Shown here piece by piece: positions 1-42,170 of a stretch of DNA of 44,511 nucleotides (position 1 is its first letter; the number at the start of each line of letters is the position of its first letter). The DNA comes from Opitutales bacterium (GTDB lineage: Bacteria > Verrucomicrobiota > Verrucomicrobiia > Opitutales > T3Sed10-336), in assembly GCA_007130045.1 (NCBI GenBank), contig SLTG01000089.1:1-44511 (forward strand). The letters run 5' to 3'. The notes under the pieces are model-generated. The model was not told where the DNA came from. It ran no database searches and worked only from the letters and a program-made list of their open reading frames with translations. The position numbers and the translations under genes were made by a program.

Positions 1-66
1 GAGATTCACGGCGGCGGCGGTTTTGCCGACTCCGCCCTTGATGCTGTAAAGGGCGATGACTTTCAT
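1..66 (-). CDS. ParA/MinD-type P-loop ATPase, 5' end only
   Basis: Only the first 22 codons lie in the window; the gene runs off the left edge. They read MKVIALYSIKGGVGKTAAAV followed by NL. KGGVGKT is the deviant Walker A of the ParA/MinD/SIMIBI class, and the surrounding beta strand fits the very N-terminus of such proteins. The ATG overlaps the stop of the upstream CHAD gene (ATGA, 63-66), and a GGAAAGGA ribosome site lies just inside the end of that gene, so translation is probably coupled. ParA-family ATPases position plasmids, chromosome origins, carboxysomes or other cargo on the nucleoid. Sitting last in a polyphosphate cluster, this one may act on polyP granules (inference). The family call is safe; the cargo is unknown. 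Confidence 0.85.
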   Translation of the reverse strand, partial: MKVIALYSIKGGVGKTAAAVNL

Positions 67-1622
67 GTTTGCCGGTCCTTTCCGGAGAACAGGATGTCCG
101 CCCGCTTTCGCACCGCGGGCGTATCCAGGGCGGCGAACGCCTTGCCGAACTTGGCGCGTTCGGCCCGGCGGGCGCGGGCGAGCTCGGACAGCAAGCCGCC
201 GAGCGACGCGGCCAAGCCGGCAGGCGTTCCCTTTTTGCCTTCAGCGACATCGAGGCGTCGCCGAGCCCAGTCCTCCTGGGTGGCGAGGTCGTTGAACCTG
301 CCGAGGATGGTTTGCAGCTTGCGAAACCGCCGAACCAGAAACGCCGTGTCCCCGGGCGGCAGCAGGCTGCCGAAGAACTCCAGCAAGTAGCGAAGTTTTT
401 TGAATTGGATACGCAGATTGTGCAGAGCTTTGTCCGGCGAAACCTTCCCGATCGCCCGGCCGTCGCGAAGAATCCGCTCAAAGCGCTTGCGCAGGAGTCG
501 CTTCCCCACCTTGATCGCCGGCTTGCCCGCCAGGGAACCGGCCCGGGCTGTTTCTTTTTCTAGAAAATGCCGCCATTGGGCCAGGGTGTTGCGGGTGGAT
601 GGGCGTTTCAGAAAGTCCCGGCACTTGACGAAGGCCCGCGCGCGCTCCTTCGAGATTTGCCGGAACAACCCGTTCAACCCGTTCTGCAACTCGGGCGGCA
701 GGAGTGCTTCGAGCGCGTCGCGCTCGATGAGGTGGACATCCAGATCGCGCAGCTTATTGGTGGATTTTTGGATTTTTATCAGTTCTCTGAGAAATTCTTT
801 TTCCACGGAAGACGGAAAAACCCCTTTCACCAATTGCAGTGCGGACCGGCTGCGCCGCAGCGCCACACGAAAGTCGTGCAGGAATTCCGTATCCAGATCC
901 GCGAGCGCTCCCGGAAGGTTGCGTTCCGCGATATCGAGCGAGGCCAGGTGAATGCGGCGGCAGGCGTCCGCCGCGGTGATGCCCGGGGGCAGTTTCAGGT
1001 CGCTTTTCGAGGAGTAGTCGAAGGGCTCGCGCCCGACCGAGGCGAAGGCGAGCGATGCGGGATGCGTCCACGATTCTCCCGCGCGACACCCGGCCTCCGC
1101 CAGGAGGGCCGCTACACGGGCGGCTTCGGATTCGTAGCCCTTCAACGGCGTGAGCCTAAAGCCGGTCGAGGAATCGTCTTTTGCCGAAACATTTTCCAGG
1201 GCAATCCGGCAGACGGTTTTGCCGTCCCGGTTGAGGAGATTGAAGCGTTTCCTGGTTTCGCGAAAGCGGCCCGAGGCCAGGAGTGCGCGTACGCCGCAAA
1301 CCGCCTGCAGCCGCTCCCGCAATTCACCGGTCGGCAGGTCTTGCCGGAAATTTGTTTGTGTGTTTCCGCCGAGGCGAATGCCGGCAACCACCGACCGGTC
1401 ATGAACCCGGGAGAGGATCAGGCGGCGCGGACGGAAAGTTTCCAACAAAACCAATCCTTCTTCGAGGAGCCGCCAGTCGAAAGTTTCCAGGCAATGGGCC
1501 GAAAGCGTTTCGCTTCCGTTCGGAGCAACGGTGAAAAGCCGCTCGATATCGGCGAGCACCCGGTCGGCGAGAGAATCGTCGATCAACCAACAGCGAGCCG
1601 CATCATTCATGGTCGGTTTCAA
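63..1622 (-). CDS. CHAD domain protein with degenerate CYTH-like N-terminus
   Basis: The protein has 519 residues. The C-terminal half is a CHAD domain (conserved histidine alpha-helical domain): FLHDFRVALRRSRSAL near residue 250 and ALHNLRIQFKKLRYLLEFF near 410 carry the conserved His plus Arg/Lys sets that form its basic, polyphosphate-binding surface. The first about 200 residues resemble a worn CYTH domain (the LETFDWRLLEEGLVLLE stretch matches the strand-rich part of CYTH-CHAD fusions) but lack a clear ExExK motif, so catalysis there is doubtful. CHAD proteins are known to locate to polyP granules. The gene follows the stand-alone CYTH gene by 40 bp and overlaps the ParA gene by 4 bp. 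A second ATG five codons in is an alternative start. Confidence 0.9.
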   Translation of the reverse strand: MKPTMNDAARCWLIDDSLADRVLADIERLFTVAPNGSETLSAHCLETFDWRLLEEGLVLLETFRPRRLILSRVHDRSVVAGIRLGGNTQTNFRQDLPTGELRERLQAVCGVRALLASGRFRETRKRFNLLNRDGKTVCRIALENVSAKDDSSTGFRLTPLKGYESEAARVAALLAEAGCRAGESWTHPASLAFASVGREPFDYSSKSDLKLPPGITAADACRRIHLASLDIAERNLPGALADLDTEFLHDFRVALRRSRSALQLVKGVFPSSVEKEFLRELIKIQKSTNKLRDLDVHLIERDALEALLPPELQNGLNGLFRQISKERARAFVKCRDFLKRPSTRNTLAQWRHFLEKETARAGSLAGKPAIKVGKRLLRKRFERILRDGRAIGKVSPDKALHNLRIQFKKLRYLLEFFGSLLPPGDTAFLVRRFRKLQTILGRFNDLATQEDWARRRLDVAEGKKGTPAGLAASLGGLLSELARARRAERAKFGKAFAALDTPAVRKRADILFSGKDRQT

Positions 1623-1662
1623 AGTTCGGGCGGGTCACGGAAAGAAAGAATGCGGAACCGGT

Positions 1663-2163
1663 TCATGGCGGGGGTCTCCGGGAATGATCGGCACTTTGGT
1701 GCTTCCATTCCGGATACGGATGGCGTGCCAGGTAGGCGTTGAAAAAACGCGGGTCCCCGCTGACCTCGCGCTGGACCCAGGGCGGCGTTTCGATCTGGTC
1801 GTCTTCCGCCGTCAACTCGACTTCGGCCATGACCAGGCCCTCGTTGGCGCCGGCGAACAGATCCACTTCCCATAGGCGGCCCCCGTACCGGTAGTGACGG
1901 CGGGTTTTTTCGATTCGGCCGGAGGTCGCTACGGATTTCAGGAGTTCGCGGGCGTCCTCGACCGGGATGGTGTACTCAAATTCCGTCCGCGTCAGGCCGG
2001 AACCGACTCCCTTGAGCGTGAGAAAGGCTTGATCGCCCGCGATGCGCACCCGCGCCTTGATCAGGTCGTGGTCGAGGTAAGCCTGTTCCACCGCGAAACT
2101 CGCTTCGGGCGCGGGCAGCTCGGCGGGATCCACCAAAAATTTGCGTTCGATTTCAACGCCCAT
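1663..2163 (-). CDS. CYTH domain protein (triphosphate tunnel metalloenzyme family)
   Basis: The 166-residue protein opens with MGVEIERKFLV. E4, E6 and K8 form the ExExK signature of CYTH/TTM enzymes, which bind a metal-triphosphate in an eight-strand tunnel. Later strands with alternating charged residues are visible: FLTLKG, RTEFEY, KTRRHY, WEVDLFAG and MAEVEL. Bacterial relatives include tripolyphosphatases, thiamine triphosphatases and class IV adenylate cyclases; this short form resembles the tripolyphosphatase-type members. Length is normal for a stand-alone CYTH protein. It starts 18 bp after the PPK2 stop and ends 40 bp before the CHAD gene, so it is very probably cotranscribed with both. 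The likely role is hydrolysis of short polyphosphates or nucleoside triphosphates; the exact substrate cannot be read from sequence. Confidence 0.9.
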   Translation of the reverse strand: MGVEIERKFLVDPAELPAPEASFAVEQAYLDHDLIKARVRIAGDQAFLTLKGVGSGLTRTEFEYTIPVEDARELLKSVATSGRIEKTRRHYRYGGRLWEVDLFAGANEGLVMAEVELTAEDDQIETPPWVQREVSGDPRFFNAYLARHPYPEWKHQSADHSRRPPP

Positions 2164-2181
2164 GGGCCGCCTCGCTTTCGT

Positions 2182-3084
2182 TCATAAAGCTTTACCCTCC
2201 GCAGTGAGGACTTTGCGGACACGTTCGACCTCCGCCAGTTGCGTCTTGTCGGGTTTCGGGTAGGCGATCGGGAGGGAGCGGAGGGTTTCAATGATAATGT
2301 GGGAAACGATCAAGCGCGCGTTGCGCTTGTCATCGGCCGGCACGGCATACCAGGGCGCCGCCGAGTGTGAGGTGCTTCGCAGGCACTCGGCGTAGACCGT
2401 TTGAAAGGCGTCCCATTGTTCGCGGCTCTCCAGGTCGGCCGGGCTGATCTTCCAGTGTTTCTCCGCTTCCTTCGCGCGGGCGAGGAGCCGTTGCCGCTGC
2501 TCCTCCTTGGAGAGGTGCAGGAAAAACTTCAGAACGCGGGTTCCATTCCGGTGGAGATAATCCTCGAACTGAACGATGTCGCGGTACCGATCGCGCCAGA
2601 AGTGTTTTTGTCCGACACATTCCTCCGGCAGAGGTTGTGCCGCCAGGACGGAGGGAACGGCTTTCACGATCAAAACCTCCTCGTAATAGGACCGGTTGAA
2701 AATCCCGATGTGACCGCGCATGGGAACCCGTTTGGTGGTCCGCCAGAGGAAATCGTGGGCCAATTCCTCCTGGCTGGGTTGTTTGAAGCTGTGAACCTGG
2801 CAGCCTTGCGGATTGACACCGCTCATCACGTGCCGGATTGCGCCGTCTTTGCCCGCCGTGTCCATTCCCTGGAAAACCAACAGGAGCGCGTATCGGCTGT
2901 GCGCGTACAGGACCCGCTGTAGGGCGTGCAACTCCTCGGTGGATCCCGCCAGCAAGCTCCGGTAGTCCTTCCCTGACTTATACAGCTTGTCGATTTTCGT
3001 CGGCTGCTTCGCCAGCTCCAGAGCCTTGGCTTTCGCCCGGGGAGCCGCCACACGGAAATCTTTGGGTTTAACGGAAAGCTTCAT
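2182..3084 (-). CDS. ppk2: Polyphosphate kinase 2 (PPK2) family phosphotransferase
   Basis: The 300-residue protein transfers phosphate between polyphosphate and nucleotides. Visible motifs are the Walker A GMDTAGKDG after LLVFQ, SGVNPQGCQVHSFKQPSQEE, the Walker B-like stretch IGIFNRSYYEEVLI, KFFLHLSKEEQRQRL, and the lid EKHWKISPADLESREQWDAF. The pattern and the length of about 300 residues fit the single-domain group that includes class III enzymes able to phosphorylate both NMPs and NDPs; the class is my reading from memory of family members. The start is set at MKLSVKPKDFRV, as in relatives; an ATG 15 codons upstream (3129) is in frame but adds an atypical tail. It is the first gene of a four-gene minus-strand cluster with CYTH, CHAD and ParA proteins. 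Confidence 0.93.
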   Translation of the reverse strand: MKLSVKPKDFRVAAPRAKAKALELAKQPTKIDKLYKSGKDYRSLLAGSTEELHALQRVLYAHSRYALLLVFQGMDTAGKDGAIRHVMSGVNPQGCQVHSFKQPSQEELAHDFLWRTTKRVPMRGHIGIFNRSYYEEVLIVKAVPSVLAAQPLPEECVGQKHFWRDRYRDIVQFEDYLHRNGTRVLKFFLHLSKEEQRQRLLARAKEAEKHWKISPADLESREQWDAFQTVYAECLRSTSHSAAPWYAVPADDKRNARLIVSHIIIETLRSLPIAYPKPDKTQLAEVERVRKVLTAEGKAL

Positions 3085-3289: not shown

Positions 3290-4330
3290 ATGCTTGACAT
3301 TACGTTTTGGATACAACCACGGAAATTGCGACGGTTTTCCTGGCCGAAGAAATCATTCGTTGGTTTGATGGCGGCGGGGCCAAGCGGTTTCCGCGTCCCC
3401 GGACGGTGTGGGTCCGAAGGATGCGTGATTCGCCATACCAACCGGAATCGTGCCTTCTCTCTCGTGCTCCGCATGCAGGTGCTCGCGCTCCTGGCCCCCG
3501 TGGCGTCGCAGCCGTTGCTGGCGGCCAACTGGGTTGGAACCGAGGATGACAACCTGGTATCGAGTACGAATTGGGACCCCCAGCCGCCCCGGCCAAACAG
3601 CGACGTATTCTTCGATCAGGCGGCCCGGTCGAAAACGGCGTACTTCGATTTCGCGTCCGGCGCCCAGCACCGGTTCGGGGATATTGTCTTTTTATCGAAT
3701 CCTTCCGACAGTCTGGACTCCTACCTGCTCATGGGCGACGAAACCCGGGAGCTTCACGTTCGAAATATCTTCAACCAAACCGATGTCGTTCACCGCTTCG
3801 ACCTCGACGTGCGGTTCGCAAATCGTGGAACTGTGGTCACGCGGGGTGCCGTATTGTTTGGCGGCAACATCGACACGCAGACGGGCAACAACCAGCTCAC
3901 GTTCGGCGGCGGCGGCCAGGTTGTGCTTGCCGCAACGGCAGTCGTCGATTCGAGCACCGAGCTGACCTTGACGGACGAAGTGACGCTGACTCTCGAAGGA
4001 TTTTCGCAATTCGCCTCTCTTAACGTTTCCAACGGAACGACCGTGGTGGATCTGGCCGGATCCGGGTCACTGATCCTGGACAACCTTTTGGTCGCGGAAG
4101 GCTCGTTTCTCGAGATTCTCAATTGGAACGAACCACAGCAGATCCGGGTGAAGAATGAGGTGGCTGATGTCTCCCTCGCCAACGTGCGAGTCAATGGCCT
4201 TCCAGCGGAGTGGAACACGAACACACCCGAGGCCATCACCCCCATTCCGGAACCCTCCAGCTCCTCCCTTGGCGCCGGGCTGGTCATCGGGCTGGCGCTC
4301 TATCTGAGGAGGCGTGTCCGTTCCGCTTGA
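3290..4330 (+). CDS. PEP-CTERM sorting domain protein, secreted, function unknown
   Basis: The C-terminus (PIPEPSSSS, then the hydrophobic run LGAGLVIGLALYL, then RRRVRSA) is a textbook PEP-CTERM signal. Exosortase systems recognise it and it anchors exported proteins in Gram-negative bacteria that make extracellular polysaccharide. The body after ANW is rich in beta-strand, Asn/Thr/Gly sequence (for example GGNIDTQTGNNQLTFGGGGQVVLAATAVVDSS), as in beta-solenoid-like surface proteins. The export signal is AFSLVLRMQVLALLAPVASQPLLA, about 60 residues into this reading frame, so the true start may be downstream (GTG 3425 or ATG 3473) rather than ATG 3290. It is divergent from ppk2 across about 200 bp. 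No exosortase gene is in the window. Confidence 0.8.
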   Translation: MLDITFWIQPRKLRRFSWPKKSFVGLMAAGPSGFRVPGRCGSEGCVIRHTNRNRAFSLVLRMQVLALLAPVASQPLLAANWVGTEDDNLVSSTNWDPQPPRPNSDVFFDQAARSKTAYFDFASGAQHRFGDIVFLSNPSDSLDSYLLMGDETRELHVRNIFNQTDVVHRFDLDVRFANRGTVVTRGAVLFGGNIDTQTGNNQLTFGGGGQVVLAATAVVDSSTELTLTDEVTLTLEGFSQFASLNVSNGTTVVDLAGSGSLILDNLLVAEGSFLEILNWNEPQQIRVKNEVADVSLANVRVNGLPAEWNTNTPEAITPIPEPSSSSLGAGLVIGLALYLRRRVRSA

Positions 4331-4595: not shown

Positions 4596-5084
4596 ATGCA
4601 AACTTGGACAAAAATCAGTTGCGCTGCCGCAATCCTTGTACTGGCGGTTTCCGCCGGTTTATCTGCTCAACCGGCCGACCGGGGGCGGGAAGCTCCCGGC
4701 GGCGATACGCGGGAGCGCCCTGCGGATCGTCCGGACGCCGGCAGCCTTCCGGACAGGGCACAGGAAGCGGTGGAGACCGGCGTGGATGCCGCAGCCGGTG
4801 CGGTCGAACGCGCGCATCGGGGAGTCGCACGCAGAATGGAGGCTTTCGAGCGACAGATGGAACGGTTCGAACAAATTCATGCCCGCAGAACCGCCCAGTT
4901 GCAGCGGCTGCGCGATCTTGCGATTGAGAACGGCCGGGAGGACGTACTGGAGCGCGTGAATAAGCTGGTCGAGCGGGAATCCGAACGCTACGCCAATCAG
5001 ATCCGCCGCCTCCAGGAGCGAATCGAAAGAACCGCTTCGACTCCGGACGGCGAACAGGAAGACGAAGCCGGCAGCGAGGAATAA
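4596..5084 (+). CDS. Secreted coiled-coil protein, function unknown
   Basis: The 162-residue protein begins MQTWTKISCAAAILVLAVSA with a probable cleavage after GLSAQ. A Pro/Arg/Asp-rich linker (residues about 25-50) follows, then a long charged helix (QEAVETGVDAAAGAVERAHR through RRLQERIERTA) with heptad-like spacing of Leu, Met and Ile, and an acidic tail. This predicts a periplasmic coiled coil. I chose this ATG because the signal peptide starts here; the frame stays open upstream to 4458 but that part is not signal-like. The lipoprotein gene at 5133 follows by 48 bp in the same direction, so the pair is probably cotranscribed. No catalytic motif is visible. It is a hypothetical protein with clear envelope features. 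Confidence 0.7.
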   Translation: MQTWTKISCAAAILVLAVSAGLSAQPADRGREAPGGDTRERPADRPDAGSLPDRAQEAVETGVDAAAGAVERAHRGVARRMEAFERQMERFEQIHARRTAQLQRLRDLAIENGREDVLERVNKLVERESERYANQIRRLQERIERTASTPDGEQEDEAGSEE

Positions 5085-5132
5085 ACCGCTCCGCGCAGAA
5101 CGCGGAAAGCACCATTTAAGGAGGATGTAGCC

Positions 5133-5357
5133 ATGACACGAATTCTGACAATTATTGCCGTTGTTTCCGGACTGTTTCTAGCAGCCGGCTGCGGGCCGCA
5201 AAACGGGGCCGAAACTTATGGCAATGGGGCCGCGCCTGCGCCCGACTACGACGCTGAAGCCCGCGAAACCATTTCCGAAGAGAATATCGACGCCGTTCTC
5301 GACGAACTCGAAGCGGAGATCGCCGCTGACGAAGCTGCGGCGGAAGAGGAGGACTGA
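5133..5357 (+). CDS. Small acidic lipoprotein, function unknown
   Basis: The 74-residue product has a clear lipobox, LAAGC, with the acylated Cys at residue 19 after a hydrophobic run (ILTIIAVVSGLFLAA). The mature part is only about 55 residues and strongly acidic (DAVLDELEAEIAADEAAAEEED). A strong ribosome site, AAGGAGG, lies at about 5117-5124 ahead of the ATG. The residue after Cys is Gly, so sorting to the outer membrane is the default expectation. It follows the secreted coiled-coil gene and ends 20 bp before the convergent DUF2339 gene. Small lipoproteins of this kind are common and rarely characterised; no function is claimed. Confidence 0.8.
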   Translation: MTRILTIIAVVSGLFLAAGCGPQNGAETYGNGAAPAPDYDAEARETISEENIDAVLDELEAEIAADEAAAEEED

Positions 5358-5376
5358 AGCATCTCAGCGTCTACCC

Positions 5377-8300
5377 CTATTCCGGAGGGTCGGGTTTCTC
5401 CTCGAGCCGTTCCCGGAACCTGTGATAAAGGTAGCCGATTCCCAGCAGTACCGCGCCGAGCACCGCGAAGGCAATGATCCGGTAGAATGTGTCCTGGACG
5501 TCGTAGGCGAACACGCGGACCACACACAGGCCCAGCCCAACCAGGGCGGCCATGCGGAACGGCTTGATCCTGAAAACCACTCCCAGAACAAAGAGCACCA
5601 CTGCTGCCACGCCCCACACCGCCGTCGCGTAATCAGTTATCCGAAATACCGGGGTCATTGCCGCAATGTACACCAGCAAAAGCGCCGACCCGCCAGCCAA
5701 CGCGGCAAAGCCTGTTTGCCTTTCGCTCAATTCCCCCTTGTACGGAAGCATGATCAGGGCGAGCCCGAGCGTCGCAATCGCCGGAAGGATCCCGATCAGC
5801 AAAAAGGCTTCGCCGTAAACCATGCCCGGGATCTCTCCGCGATCGTGAAAATCCAGTATCCGAAAATGGGATTCGCGCTGGGCAAGTACCGCCAGCAATA
5901 AGGCGAACGTGCCCCATGAGAGCGAACTTCGCCATCGCCATGCCGCGCCGATGCCCATCGCCCCGACTCCGAGCAAAACCGGAATCCACTGAGGAAAGAC
6001 CGTCTCCCGGACCGCCGCCACATACACCGCGAACAATAACAGCCCTCCCCCGAAGTCGCTTCCCTCCCGATTCATCCCCGTCGCGTCGATCTGCTCGCGC
6101 AGGGGTTTCAGCGCGCCGCCCATCGCGAGCATGTATCCGATGCCCAATAACACGGCAATCCACAGGGCGGCCGGAGAGAACTCCGGCGGCCAGTCCCACA
6201 TCACGAAAACCAGGCCGTAGAAGAAGGGAAGCCCAGACAGGAACGCCAGCCGTGAAACCCGAAGAAGCAACACAGCACCCACGGCCATCCACACTCCAAG
6301 CACCGTCGCAGTCAGGAACCAGGCATCCGGGACGATTCGAAACAGCACGAGCGTCAATGTCAGCAGCCATACCGCGTGAAGAATCGCCTCCACTGCCGGC
6401 GCTCCTTTGTCACCGTTCTGCCAAACGGTCGCAACGGCGGTTGCCCCGCCCAACCCGACTGCAATCAATCCGATCCCGGAGGCAATCGTCGCGCAGGTAC
6501 CCACGTCGCCGTTCCACCCCAAGATGAACACACTCTGTCCGTAAATGAAGGCCAGGGCGGAGGCGGCAAACCACCGATGCTTCGATCCGGCAAGGAACTC
6601 CATTCCTCCGAATGAGGCGATTGCCGCCAGGCTGCAGAAGACGGCATTTAGCGGGCCAAAAAAGACATTGGCGTATGCGATCGCCGATACGCCCGCGCCC
6701 AGTTGCCCCAGGAGGGCGAGCATAATCGCCGGATCGTCATCCTTCGTATCCTCCGCGATGAACCTTCGCCTGACCGCCAGAACCGAGCCAAGGGCCAGGA
6801 TGAAAATGCCTGCCAGGATCACGTTCAATTCTTCACGGCCGCCCTCAAGCGACACATCATAAAGAAACAGTCCAATCGCGAGCGCGATCACACCGTAGAA
6901 AAAGACCTCCAGAGCGATTTCCCTGCGTTCCCGCAGCACCGCCAGCACACACGCCGCCTGCGCGAGAATCCCCAGCCAGCGGACCTCGCCCGCGAAGAAG
7001 GCCACCAGGAAGAGCGCGGCCAGGGCGCTGCCTTTGACAAAGAACCCGGTCGCCGGGGCAAACCCTTCCTTCCTGCGCCGGAACTCTTCGGACGCGCCGA
7101 GCGTCAGAACGGCGAACACGAGATAGAAGACATCGAGCGATTCCGGAAAGAGCCGCCAGGTGAAGAACCACCCGAGTAGCAGTGCCGCCGCGCTGTTTGT
7201 GTAATGGTAAAGCTGTGACGCGTTTCCGAGAAATCCGCGTCCGCCGCGCGCCGCCACGGAATCCACCAGAACAAAAAAGGCGAATGCTCCAGCAATGATC
7301 CCCATGCCAAAGAGGAATGAAGCCTCCTCGGCGCCCGGTATCCATAGATCACCGACAACAATCGCCATGACCGCCCAGGCACCGGCAAGCGCAACCCCCA
7401 ACGGCTGCCGCCATTCCCTCCAGATCAGAATAGCCGCGGCACCCGCCGCGAGGAGCGCAGCCCCGAACATCGCGAAGTTTGTGAGATCGCCCGCGAACGC
7501 GAAGATGCACGAGACGTACCCCAGAAAGATCGCCATCACGGCAACTCCCTGCCGCTGTTTCCACAGGCTGGCCGCGAGGATGATCCCGACCGCAATTGCC
7601 TGGAGTGCGCCTCCCGCCGTAGCGCTTCCGACGATCCGAACCGGCGCGATCCCGTACGCGGCAAACGCGCAGAAATAAATCAGCGCGAGTCCTCCCGCGA
7701 ATACAACCCGTCCAAAGCCCGCGATCTCGGCGTTTCGTTTTTCGAGCCAGGCGCCCGACCCGCAGACCCCGCACGAAACGGCGAACAGAGCAAGCCATCG
7801 CAGCCATGCGGGCGTATCCTGCGCGATATAAACACCGAAGAAAACCGCCGCGATCACCGCCATTACGGTCCCGATCCGGGTTGTCCACCACGCGCCCAAA
7901 CCCGCCTCGCCGCGATCCTCAGCGGCCGGAGGAAGAATGTTTGCTCGTCGAAGAATGTCGAGAAACGGCGTATCGCTTTCGGTATCGCCGGCATTTCCCG
8001 CGCTAAACGCGCGTGCCGGTATCTCGTGGTAGGTCTCCGGCCGCCCGGCGTCTTCCTCCGGTTCAGAAATGGATGGTGTCGGCTGTTTGGGACTCGCGGA
8101 ACGCCGCGCCGCGAGAAACGCTTCGGCCGGATCGGCCCGGGCAGCCGTTCCTTCGCCGTGTTCAAACTGCGGCTCGGGAGCTTTGGTATTCCCGGGTTCA
8201 GCGCCCGCATTCGACGCTTCCGGCTGCGGACCAGCGCTCGGAGCGCGGGAATCCGTTTCACGAACCGTCGATCGGAGCCGGATGAACTCACCTTTCAGCC

Positions 8301-12737: not shown

Positions 12738-14246
12738 ATGACGGGAAGTATAGTGTTTATCTCTATGCCATTGATCCTTCAATCACTCCCGGCTGTTGCG
12801 TCCGACTCGCCGTCCGGTGTCCGGCACAGACTCATCGTCTTGGCCGACATGGGCAACGAGCCCGACGAGGAGCAGCAAATGGTGCATCTGCTGATGTGTC
12901 ACAACGAGTTCGACCTCGAAGGTTTGATCGCGGTGAGCGGCATCCACTTGCGGCCGTCGAACCGGGACCCCTATCGGCGGGTACTGCACCCGGAGCTCTT
13001 TCACCGCCTGATCGACGGCTACGAGAAAGTCTATCCCAACCTGCACCTCCACGCCGGCGGCTGGCTCTCACCCTTCAACCTGCGGATGAAGGTCGTCTCC
13101 GGTCAGCCCGATTACGGCATGGACGGCGTGGGTGAGGGTAAATCGACCACAGGCTCGGAGCTGATCATCCGTCACGTGACCGTCGCCGACCCGCGACCCG
13201 TGTTCATCGTTATCAACGCCGGGTCGAACACGCTTGCCCAAGCCTTGATCGACTACCGGGCGAGCCACAGCCCAGAAGAAGTCGACGCCTTTGTCGCGAA
13301 ACTGCGCGTCTTCGAGAACGGCGCACAGGACGATGCCGGCGCGTGGATCACTCACACCTTTCCGCAGATCCATTGGATTCGCGGGAAGGCCCAGTCGAAG
13401 TGCTATGGCGGACCTGCCCAAGACGTGGCCGGACCCCACGTGTGGAAGCCCTACGCTTATTCCGCCAAGGGGCAGGATGACTGGGCCCACGAGCACATTC
13501 GCACCGGCCACGGCCCCCTCGGCGAGCTGTACCCTATGCGGCTCTATTTCCATCTCACTTTCGATAATCCCACTTTCATCGAGGGCGGCGGAACCATTCC
13601 CTGGATGAGCCTCGTCTCCCGCGGCCTGACCGATCCGTCCGAACAGACGTGGGGCGGGTGGAGCGGGCGATATACGGCGGAGCGGGTTCTCAACGTCCCC
13701 GCCGATTCCTCGCGTGTGAGGCCCGACGAAGAACGATTCAAGCCCTGGGCGGTCTACACAGACGCAGTCGGCCGGTGGACCGATCCCGACACCGGCGTGA
13801 CATATCACGACGAGTACACTCCCATCTGGCGTTGGCGACAGGCGATGTGGAACGACTTCCGGGCGCGCATGGACTGGTGCTTGAAACCCTTCGCCGAGGC
13901 CAATCATCATCCGCGCGCCGTCGTAAACGGTGATGCCGCCACCGACATTTTGCATCATTCGGCGCGCCCCGGGGAGACGCTGGTCTTCGACGCGTCCGAA
14001 TCCAGCGATCCCGACGGCGACGAGCTCACGTTCTCGTGGTGGAATTATCCCGAGGCCGGGCGCGCTCCCTATGGAAAAGCGCTGCCGCTCGCCGACGCCA
14101 CTTCCCCGCGCGTCACCCTCACGGTCCCGGCGGACGCCGAGGGAAAGGAGCTGCACCTCATTCTCGAGGTCACCGACCGGTCCCCGATAGTCCCCTTGAC
14201 CGCATATCGGCGGGTGGTTATCGAAGTGGGGGCGCACGCACGGTGA
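12738..14246 (+). CDS. DUF1593/Sde182-type nucleoside hydrolase-like protein, secreted
   Basis: The 502-residue protein starts MTGSIVFISMPLILQSLPAV, a signal peptide with probable cleavage after AVA. The mature part begins with a nucleoside hydrolase-like fold: RHRLIVLADMGNEPDEEQQM replaces the classic DxDxGxDxDD metal motif, followed by EGLIAVSGIHLRP. VFIVINAGSNTLAQAL and DDAGAWITHTFPQIHWIRG are further family blocks. The last about 90 residues (VVNGDAATDILHHSARPGET onward) form an Ig-like C-terminal domain with SSDPDGDELTFSW. Relatives are often annotated cellulose-binding Sde182-like. It probably acts on glycans outside the cell, but the substrate is unknown. It is GC-rich like the host, unlike its homolog at 27878-29317. 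Confidence 0.88.
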   Translation: MTGSIVFISMPLILQSLPAVASDSPSGVRHRLIVLADMGNEPDEEQQMVHLLMCHNEFDLEGLIAVSGIHLRPSNRDPYRRVLHPELFHRLIDGYEKVYPNLHLHAGGWLSPFNLRMKVVSGQPDYGMDGVGEGKSTTGSELIIRHVTVADPRPVFIVINAGSNTLAQALIDYRASHSPEEVDAFVAKLRVFENGAQDDAGAWITHTFPQIHWIRGKAQSKCYGGPAQDVAGPHVWKPYAYSAKGQDDWAHEHIRTGHGPLGELYPMRLYFHLTFDNPTFIEGGGTIPWMSLVSRGLTDPSEQTWGGWSGRYTAERVLNVPADSSRVRPDEERFKPWAVYTDAVGRWTDPDTGVTYHDEYTPIWRWRQAMWNDFRARMDWCLKPFAEANHHPRAVVNGDAATDILHHSARPGETLVFDASESSDPDGDELTFSWWNYPEAGRAPYGKALPLADATSPRVTLTVPADAEGKELHLILEVTDRSPIVPLTAYRRVVIEVGAHAR

Positions 14247-27877: not shown

Positions 27878-29317
27878 TTAATAATTTGTTACAATTACCA
27901 CCATTCGCCGATAAGTAACCAACGGCACAATTTTACTGTCATCCATAACCTCCAGGATGATATGCAGATCTTTACACGCAGCGTCTTTTGGAATTTTCAA
28001 CGAGGTTTTTACCGATGTTGGGTTATCGATCGACAACGGTTTGTTATATGGCCTTACACCTGCTTCTGAATATACCCACCAATAATATGACAAGTTATCA
28101 TCATCCGGGTCATTCGACCCTGTGGCATCCAAGTAGATGGACTCGTCGTAATTGGATTTAACTTTGACGATATTATTCGTAGTGTCTCCATTCAACACCG
28201 CTATTGGGTGGTGATTTGCATTCTGGTAAGGTTCAACGCACCAATCCATTCTGGCTTTAAAGTCGTTCCACATGGCATTTCGCCATCTCCAAACCGGCGT
28301 ATAAACATCCTCATAGGTTTTTCCATCGGCGGCGTTAACCCACTTGTCAATAATATCATCTCCATCGGTGTAAGCATGAAAAGGGGAATACTGCTTTTCG
28401 TCTGCATGAATTATCGAAAATCCAGAAAGGGGGTTGAGAGCTTTCCTCGCAGTATAGCGTCCACTCCAGCCTCCCCAAGAAGGTTGGGAAATGTCTGACA
28501 ACCCCGGATTGATTAAACCCGCCCACGGTATTTCGCCGCCACCGCCAATAAAATGGAACTCTCCGGCGACTTTTCTATCTGGATAAAGTTCGCCCAAAGC
28601 ACCATGATTGGTTTGAATATTTTCTTTCGCCCACTGATGCTGCCCCAAAGGACTGTATTCGTATGGCTTCCAGCAATGAGGCCCAAGGTTGTCGTTCGTG
28701 GGACCGCCATAAGCGCGATTCTGATACCTGCCGCGTATATAAAATATATCGGGAAACTCATGACATATCCATGCACCGCACTCGTCTTGACCGGAATTGT
28801 CATACACCCTGATTTTCGAAAGGAAAGCATCCATTTGTGCTTTTGTATGATTTTCTCTGTAGTCGAAAAGAGTTTGCGCAAGCGTGTTCATGCCTCCGTT
28901 GGACAGTATATACAATGGACGATGATCGTCTTTCAATACAGCATCAATCATTAGCTTTGATCCTTGGGAAGATCGTCCAACGCCAACATCCTTCATGCCA
29001 TTATCCTCTTGTCCGCTTGCGACAATGCTTCGCAAGTATTCCGGCTGCTTCCATCCGGTTGCGTGTTTCATCAAATTCGGATATACTTTTTCGTAAGCAT
29101 CGATAATCAAATGAAACAATTCCGGCATCAACACCTTAACCGTATCCGGTGGGTCAGGTCTGAAATATCGACCTGAAACCGCAATTAATCCTTCTAAATC
29201 GAATTCGTTCGAGCACATAAGCAAATGTACGATTTGCTGCTCGTCATCGGGGTCGTGGCCGATATCGGCCATAACAATAAGTCGGACTTTATTCGTTTGT
29301 CTGGTTGTTTGTTGCAT
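27878..29317 (-). CDS. DUF1593/Sde182-type nucleoside hydrolase-like protein, no signal peptide
   Basis: The 479-residue protein is homologous along its whole length to the one at 12738-14246. Shared blocks are VRLIVMADIGHDPDDEQQIV, MCSNEFDLEGLIAVSGRYFR, PELFHLIIDAYEKVYPNL, SQPSWGGWSGRYTARKALNP and VWRWRNAMWNDFKARMDWC, plus the Ig-like end GSNDPDDDNLSYYWWVYSEA. It starts MQQTTRQTNKVRLIV without a signal peptide, so it should be cytoplasmic or lack its leader. Base composition is AT-rich compared with most of the window, suggesting transfer. It lies 160 bp downstream of the glycoside-hydrolase-like gene on the same strand; the pair is probably a unit for glycan breakdown. Confidence 0.88.
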   Translation of the reverse strand: MQQTTRQTNKVRLIVMADIGHDPDDEQQIVHLLMCSNEFDLEGLIAVSGRYFRPDPPDTVKVLMPELFHLIIDAYEKVYPNLMKHATGWKQPEYLRSIVASGQEDNGMKDVGVGRSSQGSKLMIDAVLKDDHRPLYILSNGGMNTLAQTLFDYRENHTKAQMDAFLSKIRVYDNSGQDECGAWICHEFPDIFYIRGRYQNRAYGGPTNDNLGPHCWKPYEYSPLGQHQWAKENIQTNHGALGELYPDRKVAGEFHFIGGGGEIPWAGLINPGLSDISQPSWGGWSGRYTARKALNPLSGFSIIHADEKQYSPFHAYTDGDDIIDKWVNAADGKTYEDVYTPVWRWRNAMWNDFKARMDWCVEPYQNANHHPIAVLNGDTTNNIVKVKSNYDESIYLDATGSNDPDDDNLSYYWWVYSEAGVRPYNKPLSIDNPTSVKTSLKIPKDAACKDLHIILEVMDDSKIVPLVTYRRMVVIVTNY

Positions 29318-36354: not shown

Positions 36355-39300
36355 ATGAAACCGCCGCTCACACCCGCGAATGAGAAGCGCCGCCTGGAGG
36401 TTCTGGGTGAGTACGGAATTCTGGATACGCCTCCCGAAGAAGTTTTCGATGAGATCGTTCGGCTGGTTGCCCGCCTCTGTGACGCGCCCATGGCCGCAAT
36501 GGCGATGGTGGATGACAGGCGGCTCTGGTTAAAGGCCCGAACAGGGATCGACCTGCCGGAAGTTCCTCGTGAGTTTTCGTTTTGCGGGCACGCGATTCGG
36601 CAGCAGAATCTATTTGAGATTTGCAATGCGACCGAGGATGAACGGTTTGTTAAGAACCCGTTTGTCGCCGAATCGCCCCGCATTCGGTTCTACGCGGGGG
36701 TTCCCCTTGTTTCGCCGGAAGGGTTCCCGATCGGGACGTTGCACGTGCTCGACCAAAAACCACGCGAGCTTACGGAGGACCATCGTGAAGTTCTGCAGGT
36801 GTTTGCGCGCGATATCATGGCTCACCTCAATCTGAGACGACTTTCGCCGGGAGATGATCAAAGCGAGGCGAAAAGTTTCAGGGATGGAGCGTCGATGCGG
36901 ACGGATTTCGACACGCTTGTTGAAGCGGTGCCCCACATGATCTGGGGGGCGCTTCCCGATGGCGCTCTCAACTTCTTCAACCAGCAGTGCCTGGACTACC
37001 TCGGGCGGTCCTACGAGGAGATGAAGGGGTGGGGCTGGGAGGAGGTAATTCACGTGGACGACCTTCCCCGGACTCATGAGCTTTGGAGCAGGTCGCTACG
37101 GACGGGTGAACCGTATGACACCATGTTTCGAATCAGGCGTGCCGAAGACGCGGAATACCGGTGGCATCTTACCCGTGCGCTTCCCGTTCGCGACCGGCGG
37201 GGAAAGATTGTCCGGTGGTACGGGACATGTACTGAAGTCCATGATCGGAAGGACGCTGAGCAAAGGCTGGAAGAGAAAGCGAGGGAACGCACGCTTGAAC
37301 TGGAGTCGTCGAATAAGAGGCTGAGCGAGGAGATTGCCCTGCGGCGGGAAACGGAGGAATCCTTGCGGCAAAGCGAAACACAGTTTCGCGAGCTGGCGGA
37401 GAATATAAATGAGGTGTTCTGGCTTTCGAGTTCCGACAAACAGGAAACGGTGTACGTGAGTTCGGCGTATGAAACGATCTGGGGGAGAAGCCGCAACGAG
37501 CTGTGCTCGGATCCGGAAGCCTGGCTTGCGGGCGTCCATCCCGACGATGTCGAATGGGTGCGCGAGGCGGCGAAGAAGATTCCGGATACGCTCGAGTACG
37601 ACGTTCGGTACCGGATTGTTCGCCCCGATGGCTCGATCCGGTGGATCCGGGATCGGGCGTTTCCGGTGCGTGACCAGTCGGGCAAAGTCCGGCGGATTGC
37701 CGGGTTGGCGGAGGATGTCACGTGTCATTATGAAGTCGAGCGGCTGCTGCGCGACGAAATCGGGCGCAGGGAGGCGATTTTCGACGCCCTTCCCGCGAAC
37801 ATCGCTTTGGTCGATCGGAACGGCACTATTCTGGCGGTGAACGAATCATGGAGACGGTTCGCCGTGGCGAATGTCTTCCCGGACGGCGCATCAGGCGTGG
37901 GAGTAAATTACCTGAAGGTGTGCGACAGCGCGATCGGGGACTGGTCGGAGGAGGCGGGCGAGGCTGCGGCCGGCATTCGACAGGTGCTGGATGGCAGGCG
38001 GGGCTCGTTCAGTCTGGAGTACCCATGCCATTCACCGGACGAGAAACGGTGGTTCCGCCTGATGGCGACTCCACTGCATGAAGGAAGACAGGATGGCGCT
38101 GTGATTATGCACATCGACATCAGCGAGCGCAGAATCTACGAGGAGCAGTTGCGACTCAAAAGCGGGGCGCTCGCCGCAGCCGCCAATGCGATTTTCATCA
38201 CCGACCGCGGTGGTCGTATCGAGTGGGTGAATGCAGCGTTCGTTGAATCGAGCGGATACAGCGAATCCGAGGCGATCGGACGGCGCCCGGAAGAATTGCT
38301 CAAGTCGAATCAACAGGATAAGGAGTTCTACGAGACCATGTGGAACACTATTCTTTCCGGGGAAACCTGGCGAGGCGAGATCATCAACCGGCGCAAGGAC
38401 GGGAGCTTGTATACGGAGGAAATGACGATTACCCCGATGCTCGACGACCTGGGAGCGATCACGCATTTCATTGCGGTGAAGCAGGATATTACCGAGCGCA
38501 AGCGTATCGGCGAGCAGCTGCAGGTGTCGGAACAGCGCTACCGAAGTCTGGTGGACGGCGCGCGGGACTTGATTTTCACTCTATCTCCATCCGGGGAGCT
38601 GCTTTCGATGAACCCCGCTTTCGAGTCGATCGGCGGGTTGGTAACGGAGGAATGGATCGGAAGATCTTATTTACACCTGGTGCATCCCGAAGACGCGGAA
38701 CGTGCGAATGGCGTGTTTGCACGGGTTACTCAAGGCGAAATCCCGCCTGTATTCGAGTTGAGAATCCTCGCTGCTGACGGAAAACACATCCCGATGGAAT
38801 TCACGGTGACCCCGCAATGGCGGGGGGATGAATTGATCGGAGTACTCGGAATCGGGCGTGACATCCGCGAGAGGAAACACCTTGAGGAGCAGGTAAGGCA
38901 GGCTCAGAAGCTCGATTCGATCGGCCAACTGGCCGCCGGGATCGCGCATGATTTCAACAATCTTTTGACGATTCAGCAGGGGTACCTGTCCCTGATCGCT
39001 GAAGACGGCAATCTCGAACCGGAGTTTGCGAATCCGTTGAAGGAAGTTTCGGCCGCCGCCGAGCGCGCCGCGCAGTTGACCCGGCAACTCCTGCTTTTCA
39101 GCCGCAAGCAAGAGACGAGGTTTGAACTTCTTGACGTCGGAGATGTTGTCGAAGGAATGACGAAGATGTTGGGACGGATTGTCGGAGAGGACATCGGCTT
39201 GGAGGTCGAGCGCCATCCGGAATTGCCGGACGTTGAGGCGGACCGGGGAATGCTGGAGCAGGTTGTAATGAATCTTGCCGTCAATGCGAGGGACGCGATG

Positions 39301-40023
39301 CCGGAGGGCGGGTCGTTGTCGATTCGAGCGGAAATGGCCGAGTCAGCGGCGCCCCCGGAAGCGGCCTTGAACGAACGTTCGGTGAGGTGCGTGTGTATCA
39401 AAGTGGAAGATACGGGAACCGGGATCACCCCCGGCGATCTCGAGCGGATTTACGAACCGTTTTTTACCACGAAGGAAACGGGCAAAGGCGTCGGACTCGG
39501 GCTTTCGACGGTGTACGGAATCGTACGGCGGCACCATGGCTGGATCAAAGTGAAAAGTAAGCCTCGAACAGGGACGAGTTTTTGCGTGTTCCTCCCGGTT
39601 GCGGAGGATAAAGCCGGGATGCTGGAATCCGAGACGACGCTCGGAACCTTGGAGCGGGGGAGTGAAACCATACTCGTGGTCGAGGACGAACCCGCGGTTC
39701 GGGGAATGTTGGATGCGACGCTTAGGCAACTGGGCTATAAAGTTCTCTGCGCCGGTTCGGGTCCGGACGCGATCGAACTCTGGAAAGCGGAGGGCGAGCC
39801 AGTGGACCTCTTGATTACCGACCTGGTTATGCCGGGAGGAATGACAGGGTACGAACTTGCCGACGTACTCAAGGCGCGTTCTCCGGACATGAAGATTATT
39901 TGCACAAGCGGATACGCTCCCGAGACAACCGAGTCGAGGAAGGTTGGGCGAAGACATTTTCTTCAGAAGCCCTACGCCATGCGGGATCTTGCCGCGGTGG
40001 TTCGACGTTGCCTTGACGATTAG
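36355..40023 (+). CDS. Hybrid sensor histidine kinase: GAF, five PAS, HisKA, HATPase, receiver
   Basis: This is a 1222-residue soluble kinase. The GAF domain covers about residues 20-165 (LARLCDAPMAAMAMVDD...). PAS-like domains begin near 181, 344, 474, 606 and 729, separated by PAC ends and a coiled-coil linker after the first. HisKA motif GIAHDFNNLL has the phospho-acceptor His 865. The ATPase domain has the N box NLAVNARDAMPEGG (Asn 977), G1 DTGTGI and G2 GKGVGLGLSTVYGI. The C-terminal receiver starts ETILVVEDEPAVRGML, with phospho-acceptor Asp 1156 in ITDLVMPGG and Lys in LQKPY. No membrane helix is present, so it senses cytoplasmic signals. No response regulator or target gene adjoins it. 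Confidence 0.93.
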   Translation: MKPPLTPANEKRRLEVLGEYGILDTPPEEVFDEIVRLVARLCDAPMAAMAMVDDRRLWLKARTGIDLPEVPREFSFCGHAIRQQNLFEICNATEDERFVKNPFVAESPRIRFYAGVPLVSPEGFPIGTLHVLDQKPRELTEDHREVLQVFARDIMAHLNLRRLSPGDDQSEAKSFRDGASMRTDFDTLVEAVPHMIWGALPDGALNFFNQQCLDYLGRSYEEMKGWGWEEVIHVDDLPRTHELWSRSLRTGEPYDTMFRIRRAEDAEYRWHLTRALPVRDRRGKIVRWYGTCTEVHDRKDAEQRLEEKARERTLELESSNKRLSEEIALRRETEESLRQSETQFRELAENINEVFWLSSSDKQETVYVSSAYETIWGRSRNELCSDPEAWLAGVHPDDVEWVREAAKKIPDTLEYDVRYRIVRPDGSIRWIRDRAFPVRDQSGKVRRIAGLAEDVTCHYEVERLLRDEIGRREAIFDALPANIALVDRNGTILAVNESWRRFAVANVFPDGASGVGVNYLKVCDSAIGDWSEEAGEAAAGIRQVLDGRRGSFSLEYPCHSPDEKRWFRLMATPLHEGRQDGAVIMHIDISERRIYEEQLRLKSGALAAAANAIFITDRGGRIEWVNAAFVESSGYSESEAIGRRPEELLKSNQQDKEFYETMWNTILSGETWRGEIINRRKDGSLYTEEMTITPMLDDLGAITHFIAVKQDITERKRIGEQLQVSEQRYRSLVDGARDLIFTLSPSGELLSMNPAFESIGGLVTEEWIGRSYLHLVHPEDAERANGVFARVTQGEIPPVFELRILAADGKHIPMEFTVTPQWRGDELIGVLGIGRDIRERKHLEEQVRQAQKLDSIGQLAAGIAHDFNNLLTIQQGYLSLIAEDGNLEPEFANPLKEVSAAAERAAQLTRQLLLFSRKQETRFELLDVGDVVEGMTKMLGRIVGEDIGLEVERHPELPDVEADRGMLEQVVMNLAVNARDAMPEGGSLSIRAEMAESAAPPEAALNERSVRCVCIKVEDTGTGITPGDLERIYEPFFTTKETGKGVGLGLSTVYGIVRRHHGWIKVKSKPRTGTSFCVFLPVAEDKAGMLESETTLGTLERGSETILVVEDEPAVRGMLDATLRQLGYKVLCAGSGPDAIELWKAEGEPVDLLITDLVMPGGMTGYELADVLKARSPDMKIICTSGYAPETTESRKVGRRHFLQKPYAMRDLAAVVRRCLDD

Positions 40024-40608: not shown

Positions 40609-40946
40609 GAGTATCCACGTGAAATCTTTACTGGAATGAACGATGAGGTGTATAAAAGTTTAAACATCAGATACAAAAAACACCGACTTCGACTCTATTC
40701 AATTGTTTCTGTAAAACGGGAGTTGGATTCCCGAGGTTTGGTCCCCAAATTTTTGTTGCTATTACCTTCCGGACATATCTAGCGTCCGGCCCCGAATGTT
40801 TGTGGCCCAACGTCAGCCGTGCTTTTTGGTTCCGCTCTTTTGCAGAGCACATTTGCTGAATTATAATATGGATACGGCGATTGGAGCATCCCGGCGTTGA
40901 ATTGGCCGGAACCGTTCTCTTCTTTGGTCATTTATCCGTTTTTCTT
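40609..40946. other. Intergenic stretch before autotransporter gene
   Basis: Apart from AT-rich patches (40640-40700, 40850-40875) nothing is recognisable. TTGCTGAATTATAATATGGAT at about 40850-40871 contains a TATAAT-like box some 80 bp before the next start and may belong to its promoter. Confidence 0.3.
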
Positions 40947-42170
40947 ATGTTCACAATCCTTCCAAATGTTCCCCGTCCGCGAGTTGTACTGCTTGCGGTT
41001 GGTTTTTGTTTGTTGATCTCGTTGAATGCGTCCGTTGCCTGGACGAGCGGTCCGCCTGCGGATCCGCCCCCTGCCGTCCCTCCCGATGAGGACGTGGGAG
41101 AACCCCCGTTGCCACCCGGTGATTCGCCCCCCGTCGTCGGTGAATTCGCTGCACCGGGTTCGCTTCAGGACTTGAACATCCAATCCTCGGCCACGTTTTC
41201 CGGTGTTTTAACCGACAACCTCGTTCTCAATGACTACCTTCACCGCGTTCGCGAAGCGGACCGCCGGGATGACCGGCAAGCCCGTACCAGCGCCGCCTCG
41301 CGCGCCGATCCGGCGTCCTCCGCGGATCGGAGCATAACGGATATGGGAGGGATGTTCGGAATTTCGGGCGATTCGGTCTTCGGTCGCATGCAATATTCGC
41401 GTGGCGGACGCGACACGCGGGACGACCAGACCGGTTATCGGTATGATGCTTCCGGATTGTTTTTGGGCATCGATTCCCGGGAGCGGGACAACCTCCGGGT
41501 CGGAGGAATGGCGGGGGCTCGCCGCATGAATGCGGAATTTCGCGGGGACCGGGGCGAGACGGAAATCGATTCGTTTCGACTGGGCACCTACGCAGCCTGG
41601 GAATTCGTGGAAAACGCCTATATCCACGGAGGCGTGAGCGGCGGCGCCCATCGCTACCGGACCGAGCGGGGCGACGAACCCGTCGAAAGCAAGCATTGGG
41701 GGCACGACATTTCCGGTTTCGCCGCGTCGGGATACGGCTTCGCATTGACCGAATCCTGGACGCTTACCCCGGAGGGTTCAGTTCAATATATTTACCTTCG
41801 CGAACGCGCGTATCGGGATTCCGATGACACGAAAGTATCGCGGCGAACGGAGGATGTCCTGCGAGCGGGAACGGACCTGCGCCTAAGTTACTGGAGTCCG
41901 GGAGTCGCGGTACTGGCCTACACCGGTGAACTGCTCGGCGGGGTCGCCTACGATGTCAGCGCCGATCACGGCGAGATCTGGGGACGCACGGCAAACGGAG
42001 ACCCTTTTCGTGCACGGGGGCCCTCGCCCCGGCGTGTGACCGGTGTTTTTGGCGGATCGCTCGGGCTCGTCTTTGATGAGGATTGGAGCATGGATACGCG
42101 ATATCGGGGGAGGGTCGGCAGCGACGCGTACGATCACACCGTCTCGGTCGAGTTTCGCCGCCGGTTTTAG
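40947..42170 (+). CDS. Autotransporter-type outer membrane beta-barrel protein with short passenger
   Basis: The 407-residue protein starts MFTILPNVPRPRVVLLAVGF with a signal peptide ending at about SVAW. A Pro-rich stretch of some 45 residues (PPADPPPAVPPDEDVGEPPL) and a short linker lead into a beta-barrel of about 280 residues: GMFGISGDSVFGRMQYSRGG, GLFLGIDSRERDNLRVGGMA, DSFRLGTYAAWEFVENAYIH, and so on, ending VSVEFRRRF with the C-terminal Phe recognised by BAM. This fits the PF03797-type autotransporter barrel. No normal-sized passenger precedes it. The frame is open from a TTG at 40881, but the signal peptide dictates the ATG at 40947. The beta-helix gene follows 181 bp downstream. Confidence 0.85.
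   Translation: MFTILPNVPRPRVVLLAVGFCLLISLNASVAWTSGPPADPPPAVPPDEDVGEPPLPPGDSPPVVGEFAAPGSLQDLNIQSSATFSGVLTDNLVLNDYLHRVREADRRDDRQARTSAASRADPASSADRSITDMGGMFGISGDSVFGRMQYSRGGRDTRDDQTGYRYDASGLFLGIDSRERDNLRVGGMAGARRMNAEFRGDRGETEIDSFRLGTYAAWEFVENAYIHGGVSGGAHRYRTERGDEPVESKHWGHDISGFAASGYGFALTESWTLTPEGSVQYIYLRERAYRDSDDTKVSRRTEDVLRAGTDLRLSYWSPGVAVLAYTGELLGGVAYDVSADHGEIWGRTANGDPFRARGPSPRRVTGVFGGSLGLVFDEDWSMDTRYRGRVGSDAYDHTVSVEFRRRF

Follow-up and report, generated by a model that had tools for sequence, protein, structure and literature searches.

Why should the gene for a ParA-type ATPase lie at the end of a run of polyphosphate (polyP) genes? The question is raised by a 44,511-nucleotide stretch of DNA from an Opitutales bacterium (GenBank assembly GCA_007130045.1, contig SLTG01000089.1), analysed at its full length and referred to here as the window, in which a CHAD-domain protein and the ATPase are encoded side by side. 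We consider it probable, at roughly 60%, that these two proteins form a ParA-type system dedicated to the positioning or partitioning of polyP granules. Within the first ~3.1 kb, the same-strand order PPK2, CYTH, CHAD and the 5′ piece of the ATPase gene, as given in the original prediction, was borne out by the minus-strand coordinates and by Pfam/NCBIfam matches for the first three genes. These genes encode: (i) a class I PPK2 polyphosphate kinase of 300 amino acids (aa) at 2182..3084 (Pfam, 220 bits; class I subfamily TIGR03709, 352.8 bits versus a cut-off of 247.2); (ii) a CYTH (triphosphate tunnel) protein of 166 aa at 1663..2163 (Pfam, 59 bits), with the catalytic EXEXK motif present as EIERK; (iii) a CHAD protein of 515 aa at 63..1610, composed of an N-terminal TTM/CYTH-like domain (approximately residues 1-195) and a long C-terminal CHAD domain at 264..941 (PF05235, 162 bits versus a cut-off of 25.6); and (iv) the first 22 codons of the ParA-type ATPase (MKVIALYSIKGGVGKTAAAVNL...) at 1..66, assigned by sequence reading and by fold match to Soj and McdA. 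The predicted spacing held for the 18 bp between PPK2 and CYTH and for the 4-bp ATGA overlap of the ParA start at 66 with the CHAD stop; the predicted 40 bp between CYTH and CHAD applies only if TTG at 1622 is taken as the CHAD start, and was replaced by 52 bp with the ATG at 1610, the start position common to relatives. This arrangement is far beyond chance.

Only 22 ATPase residues are in the window because it is the entire contig C136 of a 3.4-Mb genome, such that the gene is broken off at the contig edge; even this piece contains the deviant Walker A motif KGGVGKT. The leftward extension proposed for reading the full ATPase was achieved through another contig of the genome, C32: its final 116 bp match the first 116 bp of the window exactly, and it holds the complete, in-frame ATPase of 247 aa (L098, 11985-12728, minus strand, stop codon included). 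The completed ParA was 75-77% identical to those of Opitutales relatives. The prospect that the ATPase belongs to a chromosome or plasmid parAB locus with its own ParB downstream was rejected, as no ParB gene was found beside parA on C32 and the sole ParB domain of the genome is on contig C133. Instead, parA is directly followed by a VapB-type antitoxin gene (L098, 11566-11928, minus strand), with a 101-aa open reading frame of no Pfam match also downstream (L098, 10556-10861, minus strand). A separate Soj-type ParA was detected on contig C26, which scored 132-135 bits with the CHAD-linked ParA profiles versus 346-352 bits for the CHAD-linked ParA. The genome also encodes PPK1 and, therefore, can make polyP.

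Conservation of the pair was examined among 80 CHAD relatives, the best matches to the window CHAD protein in a scan of species genomes, which span about 15 phyla with archaea included; most genomes compared here are metagenome assemblies. In 75 of the 80, the next gene downstream is a ParA gene in the same orientation, and thus the adjacency on which the original prediction depended is conserved in related genomes. Four of the five relatives that lack ParA are at contig ends (5-291 bp of contig left), leaving an Ardenticatenaceae locus (L078) as the sole real absence. The gap between the two genes had a median of 18 bp, with 61 of 72 pairs at ≤50 bp and 25 of 72 sharing the 4-bp overlap of the window. 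In a member of the window's own order (L004) the CHAD protein is merely 29% identical and ParA is still adjacent, while in a relative from the same family (L005, G003:C211) CYTH is intact and both CHAD (51 aa left) and ParA are remnants in broken frames, such that the two genes appear to have decayed jointly.

The same relationship was observed in phylum samples that were chosen without regard to ParA. A CHAD match was present in 44 of 388 genomes of the window's phylum, and these 44 included: (i) 13 with a ParA neighbour, all in the CHAD subfamily of the window (lowest whole member 363 bits; G214 is cut at the start of its record); (ii) six subfamily members (357-417 bits) without a ParA neighbour; and (iii) 25 generic CHADs, none of which are beside ParA. 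When the 44 genomes were searched whole with the ParA profile, each of 13 genomes had a single match (314-364 bits), which adjoined CHAD in every case (through the C32 join for the window genome), with all other ParAs at ≤136 bits; the six genomes with an uncoupled subfamily CHAD had no ParA of the CHAD-linked type anywhere. Similarly, 15 of 16 genomes of other phyla had exactly one match by whole-genome search (342-394 bits), with none in the Ardenticatenaceae genome; across these 60 genomes the CHAD-linked type was thus found at most once each (314-394 versus ≤136 bits). Six further genomes had one match each (345-389 bits, remainder ≤151), and in a separate sample of 247 genomes the type was found in 11 and adjoined CHAD in nine. 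Pairwise tree distances of CHAD and ParA were correlated (r = 0.81, shuffle maximum 0.22), a value that owes something to the common ancestry of the genomes. The bimodal, one-to-one co-occurrence together with the 0 of 25 generic CHADs ruled out chance and simple operon drift, and these comparisons make a dedicated CHAD-ParA partnership near certain.

The pair was also found on a plasmid of a cultured bacterium, Paracoccus marcusii (L144, NZ_CP157012, 6001-9777), in the order CHAD-ParA-CYTH-NUDIX-CYTH. Both this ParA and this CHAD have their nearest relatives in Verrucomicrobiota, suggesting that the unit was transferred as a whole.

The CHAD protein was modelled with high confidence values (predicted local distance difference test, pLDDT, 90.6), and its CHAD part matched the CtCHAD-polyP complex of Chlorobium (6qva; TMt 0.93, 36% identity). 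In CtCHAD, mutating H253, R256, R260, R296 or R418/Y419 lowered polyP binding (PMC6537752). The corresponding window residues were found by alignment to be H245, R248, R252, R288, R407 and Y408, and all six positions were invariant among 36 CHAD members; on the basis of these residues the protein would be expected to associate with granules. The N-terminal domain has a TTM/CYTH fold by model comparison; the EXEXK catalytic motif is absent from this domain of the window protein, and only three of 65 members have an EXEXK pattern in the 60 aa that precede the TFDW motif. As a TTM fold without EXEXK, the domain looks like a pseudo-enzyme.

The ParA model (pLDDT 89.5) was matched most closely, in fold and in sequence, by Soj/ParA proteins (template modelling, TM, score 0.88-0.90), followed by McdA (0.84-0.86) and BcsQ and FleN (0.77-0.79), with MinD also among the matches. 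Residues K10, G11, G12, G14, K15, T16 and D123 were invariant in the family, and D37 and D39 were present in at least 99% of its members; hence both the ParA fold and the catalytic motifs are shown by comparison. The CHAD-linked ParAs had a median net charge of +12 versus −6.5 for Soj, and no C-terminal extension suggestive of a membrane anchor was found in the family. In a tree with 18 chromosomal Soj proteins, the CHAD-linked ParAs and four orphans split from Soj with 100/100 support, and family-specific residues include Y47, R49, R90, K184, H187, E213, M215, R219 and W239. Many fixed positions differ from Soj; two of these, R49 and D76, were mostly lost in the orphans.

Genes of polyP metabolism were common in the vicinity of the pair, as at least one of PPK1, PPK2, CYTH and SixA-type phosphatase was near 59 of 80 pairs (CYTH 31, PPK1 26, SixA 26, PPK2 16). 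Because of these neighbours and the invariant polyP-binding residues, CHAD-ParA is tied to polyP. The predicted coupling of PPK2, CYTH, CHAD and ParA as one unit was thus upheld for CHAD and ParA, usually accompanied by CYTH, PPK1 or SixA, and not for PPK2. As a core member PPK2 was ruled out, being near only 16 of the 80 pairs and not found upstream of CYTH in the Opitutales relatives; from the latter, the window PPK2 is taken to be a local addition.

Candidate ParA contacts in the CHAD protein emerged when 84 ParA-linked CHADs were compared with eight subfamily members without ParA. Lysine at position 131 (codon 1218..1220, minus strand), within the hairpin loop LNRDGKTV of the modelled N-terminal domain, was present in 84 of 84 ParA-linked proteins versus one of eight without ParA; for tyrosine at 159 (codon 1134..1136, minus strand), in an (R/K)GY motif of the same domain, the counts were 84 of 84 versus none of eight. 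The polyP-binding residues were retained in both groups. Seven members in which ParA was cut off at a contig end or split in frame all had both residues, as did 10 of 10 mainstream pairs fetched later. Candidatus Thiodictyon syntrophicum provides a natural uncoupled control: close to a pst operon for phosphate uptake, its plasmid pTs417 (L143) encodes a member of the ParA-coupled CHAD subfamily (472 bits), no ParA is present beside it or elsewhere on the plasmid, and this CHAD has Gln in place of K131 and His in place of Y159. The two columns were chosen after the fact and their co-loss with ParA is suggestive only; K131 and Y159 are regarded as the leading candidate contacts rather than as proof of contact. 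The signature separates most ParA-coupled CHADs from others, such that uncoupled genomes can serve as natural controls.

Based on these findings and by analogy with ParA/MinD systems (PMC10241942, PMC12204374), the following mechanism may be proposed, in which CHAD would be the cargo adaptor and ParA the motor. The CHAD domain would hold polyP and thereby place the protein on polyP granules, while the pseudo-enzyme domain would contact the ATP-bound ParA dimer, probably through hairpin residue K131 and Y159. ParA, which is strongly basic, Soj-like and devoid of a membrane anchor, is predicted to bind the nucleoid. Granule-bound CHAD would stimulate the ATPase and cause ATP-ParA to leave the nucleoid; in this manner the granules would be kept apart and distributed at cell division, as carboxysomes are by McdA/McdB. 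The fuller proposition, that this is an undescribed and widespread ATP-driven positioner or partitioner of polyP granules with a new type of adaptor, in which a folded pseudo-TTM touches ParA by an invariant hairpin lysine and is fused to a CHAD domain, is put forward at even odds.

Several observations weigh against granule positioning by CHAD and ParA. Known ParA/MinD partners stimulate their ATPase via a basic, disordered N-terminus (PMC10241942); such an activator peptide was looked for in the CHAD protein and was not present, and it was ruled out by an N-terminus (MNDAARCWLIDDSLADRVLA) which, by sequence and model, is mostly folded and net acidic over its first 20 residues. If the proposed mechanism is right, ParA would therefore be activated from a folded domain. 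A divergent Chloroflexota clade (L210-L214) has the gene pair with Arg at the K131 position and no Y159, possibly reflecting an altered contact surface, and an independent-pairs test on the CHAD tree found four of four supported contrasts concordant (p = 0.125), too few for significance. Given its strong basic charge, ParA might itself bind to polyP rather than to DNA. Finally, a small number of sister ParAs are not encoded next to a CHAD gene. These four, two from the 247-genome sample and two on plasmids, scored 264-311 bits and branch basally, or nearly so, in the tree; they are found in Marinobacter nauticus VT8 (L145, pMAQU02, 5001-5747), where the neighbours include phbB (polyhydroxybutyrate synthesis) and pyruvate kinase, in Halomonas sp. 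PA16-9 (plasmid NZ_CP040452, ~101-823), and in L190 and L191. Such proteins may serve other cargos. Their surroundings also include a GH3-like gene in L190 and a PAS-like gene in L191.

Other explanations of the partnership were considered. ParA and CHAD could act jointly on polyP without positioning granules, with ParA as an ATP-dependent switch for the CHAD/TTM protein or for the PPK or CYTH enzymes nearby. BcsQ and FleN are regulatory members of the same ATPase class, and the resemblance of the ParA fold to both, the polyP synthesis and hydrolysis genes that surround the pair and the lack of the usual basic disordered N-terminus in CHAD are all in keeping with such a role; yet the nearest matches in fold and sequence are Soj/ParA, and CHAD-ParA stays constant among neighbouring enzymes that differ from pair to pair, which identifies the constant partner as a polyP binder and not as any one enzyme. 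We regard a switch as unlikely. It is less probable still that ParA ties granules to the nucleoid, or that granules anchor DNA organisation, without active spacing. The very basic ParA is compatible with a tether, and in the case of AlgP granules are spaced by being tethered to the nucleoid (PMC9239181); however, a passive tether would not need K10, K15, D37, D39 and D123, which are invariant or nearly so.

That an ordinary chromosome or plasmid ParA adjoins CHAD by chance is highly improbable: its Soj-like fold and KGGVGKT motif are what such a protein would have, but an ordinary parAB locus is refuted by the absence of a nearby ParB, the separate and low-scoring Soj in the same genome, the separate clade and the adjacency conserved across phyla. 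Overall, a ParA-type system for positioning or partitioning polyP granules is the reading that we favor.

When compared with known systems, the pair resembles McdA/McdB in that a ParA-type ATPase gene is beside the gene of a partner, McdB being cargo-bound. The likeness extends to a critical lysine in the partner, K7 of McdB (PMC12204374), with K131 as its candidate counterpart in CHAD. The differences are that (i) the cargo here would be polyP granules, (ii) the CHAD-linked ParA is nearer to Soj than to McdA, and (iii) McdB has a basic N-terminus, whereas the partner here is a folded TTM-like and CHAD protein. ParABS (Soj/Spo0J) shares the ParA motifs and fold (30% identity to Thermus thermophilus Soj, TM 0.88), but the CHAD-linked ParA has no ParB, forms a separate clade and carries family-specific residues. 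The CHAD phosins (CtCHAD, the Ralstonia eutropha CHAD proteins and Escherichia coli YgiF) share the CHAD domain and all of the tested polyP-binding residues; they differ from the present subfamily, which has a non-catalytic TTM-like N-terminal domain and is coupled to ParA, as generic CHADs are uncoupled. AlgP of Pseudomonas aeruginosa keeps polyP granules spaced within the nucleoid region (PMC9239181), but is a histone H1-like DNA-binding tether with no ATPase.

The statement that no system of this make-up had been described held, within the literature searched, for the positioning idea and not for the adjacency. The same gene pair beside ppk was reported in a folD-ppk-parA-CHAD cluster of Acidithiobacillus, as a conserved context in one genus only, with ParA interpreted as partitioning plasmids or chromosomes and with no suggestion of a role at granules (PMC10892726; PMC6416229). 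No proposal of CHAD-ParA positioning was found in the literature searched, a coverage from which subscription papers and preprints were mostly absent and which is, thus, not proof of novelty. A 2025 review presents the positioning of polyP granules as an emerging case, names no protein for it but AlgP and leaves energy use open (PMC13052382). The CHAD-ParA pair supplies two candidate positioning proteins across many phyla, as well as the residues to mutate first. If the proposed role is true, a storage polymer would join the list of cargos of ParA-type ATPases, and CHAD proteins would gain a cellular job beyond polyP binding.

Other features of the window were also recorded. Divergent from the PPK2 operon is a gene for a 346-aa protein (3290-4330, plus strand) with no Pfam match and a C-terminus (PIPEPSSSSLGAGLVIGLALYLRRRVRSA) that resembles a PEP-CTERM sorting signal. 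The nucleoside-hydrolase-like, cellulose-binding family Sde182 is represented by two paralogues, encoded on opposite strands within 17 kb (12738-14243, plus; 27881-29317, minus). A hybrid histidine kinase of 1222 aa with GAF, four PAS stretches and a receiver domain is found at 36355-40020 (plus strand), with a gene for an autotransporter beta-domain protein downstream at 40917-42167 (plus strand).

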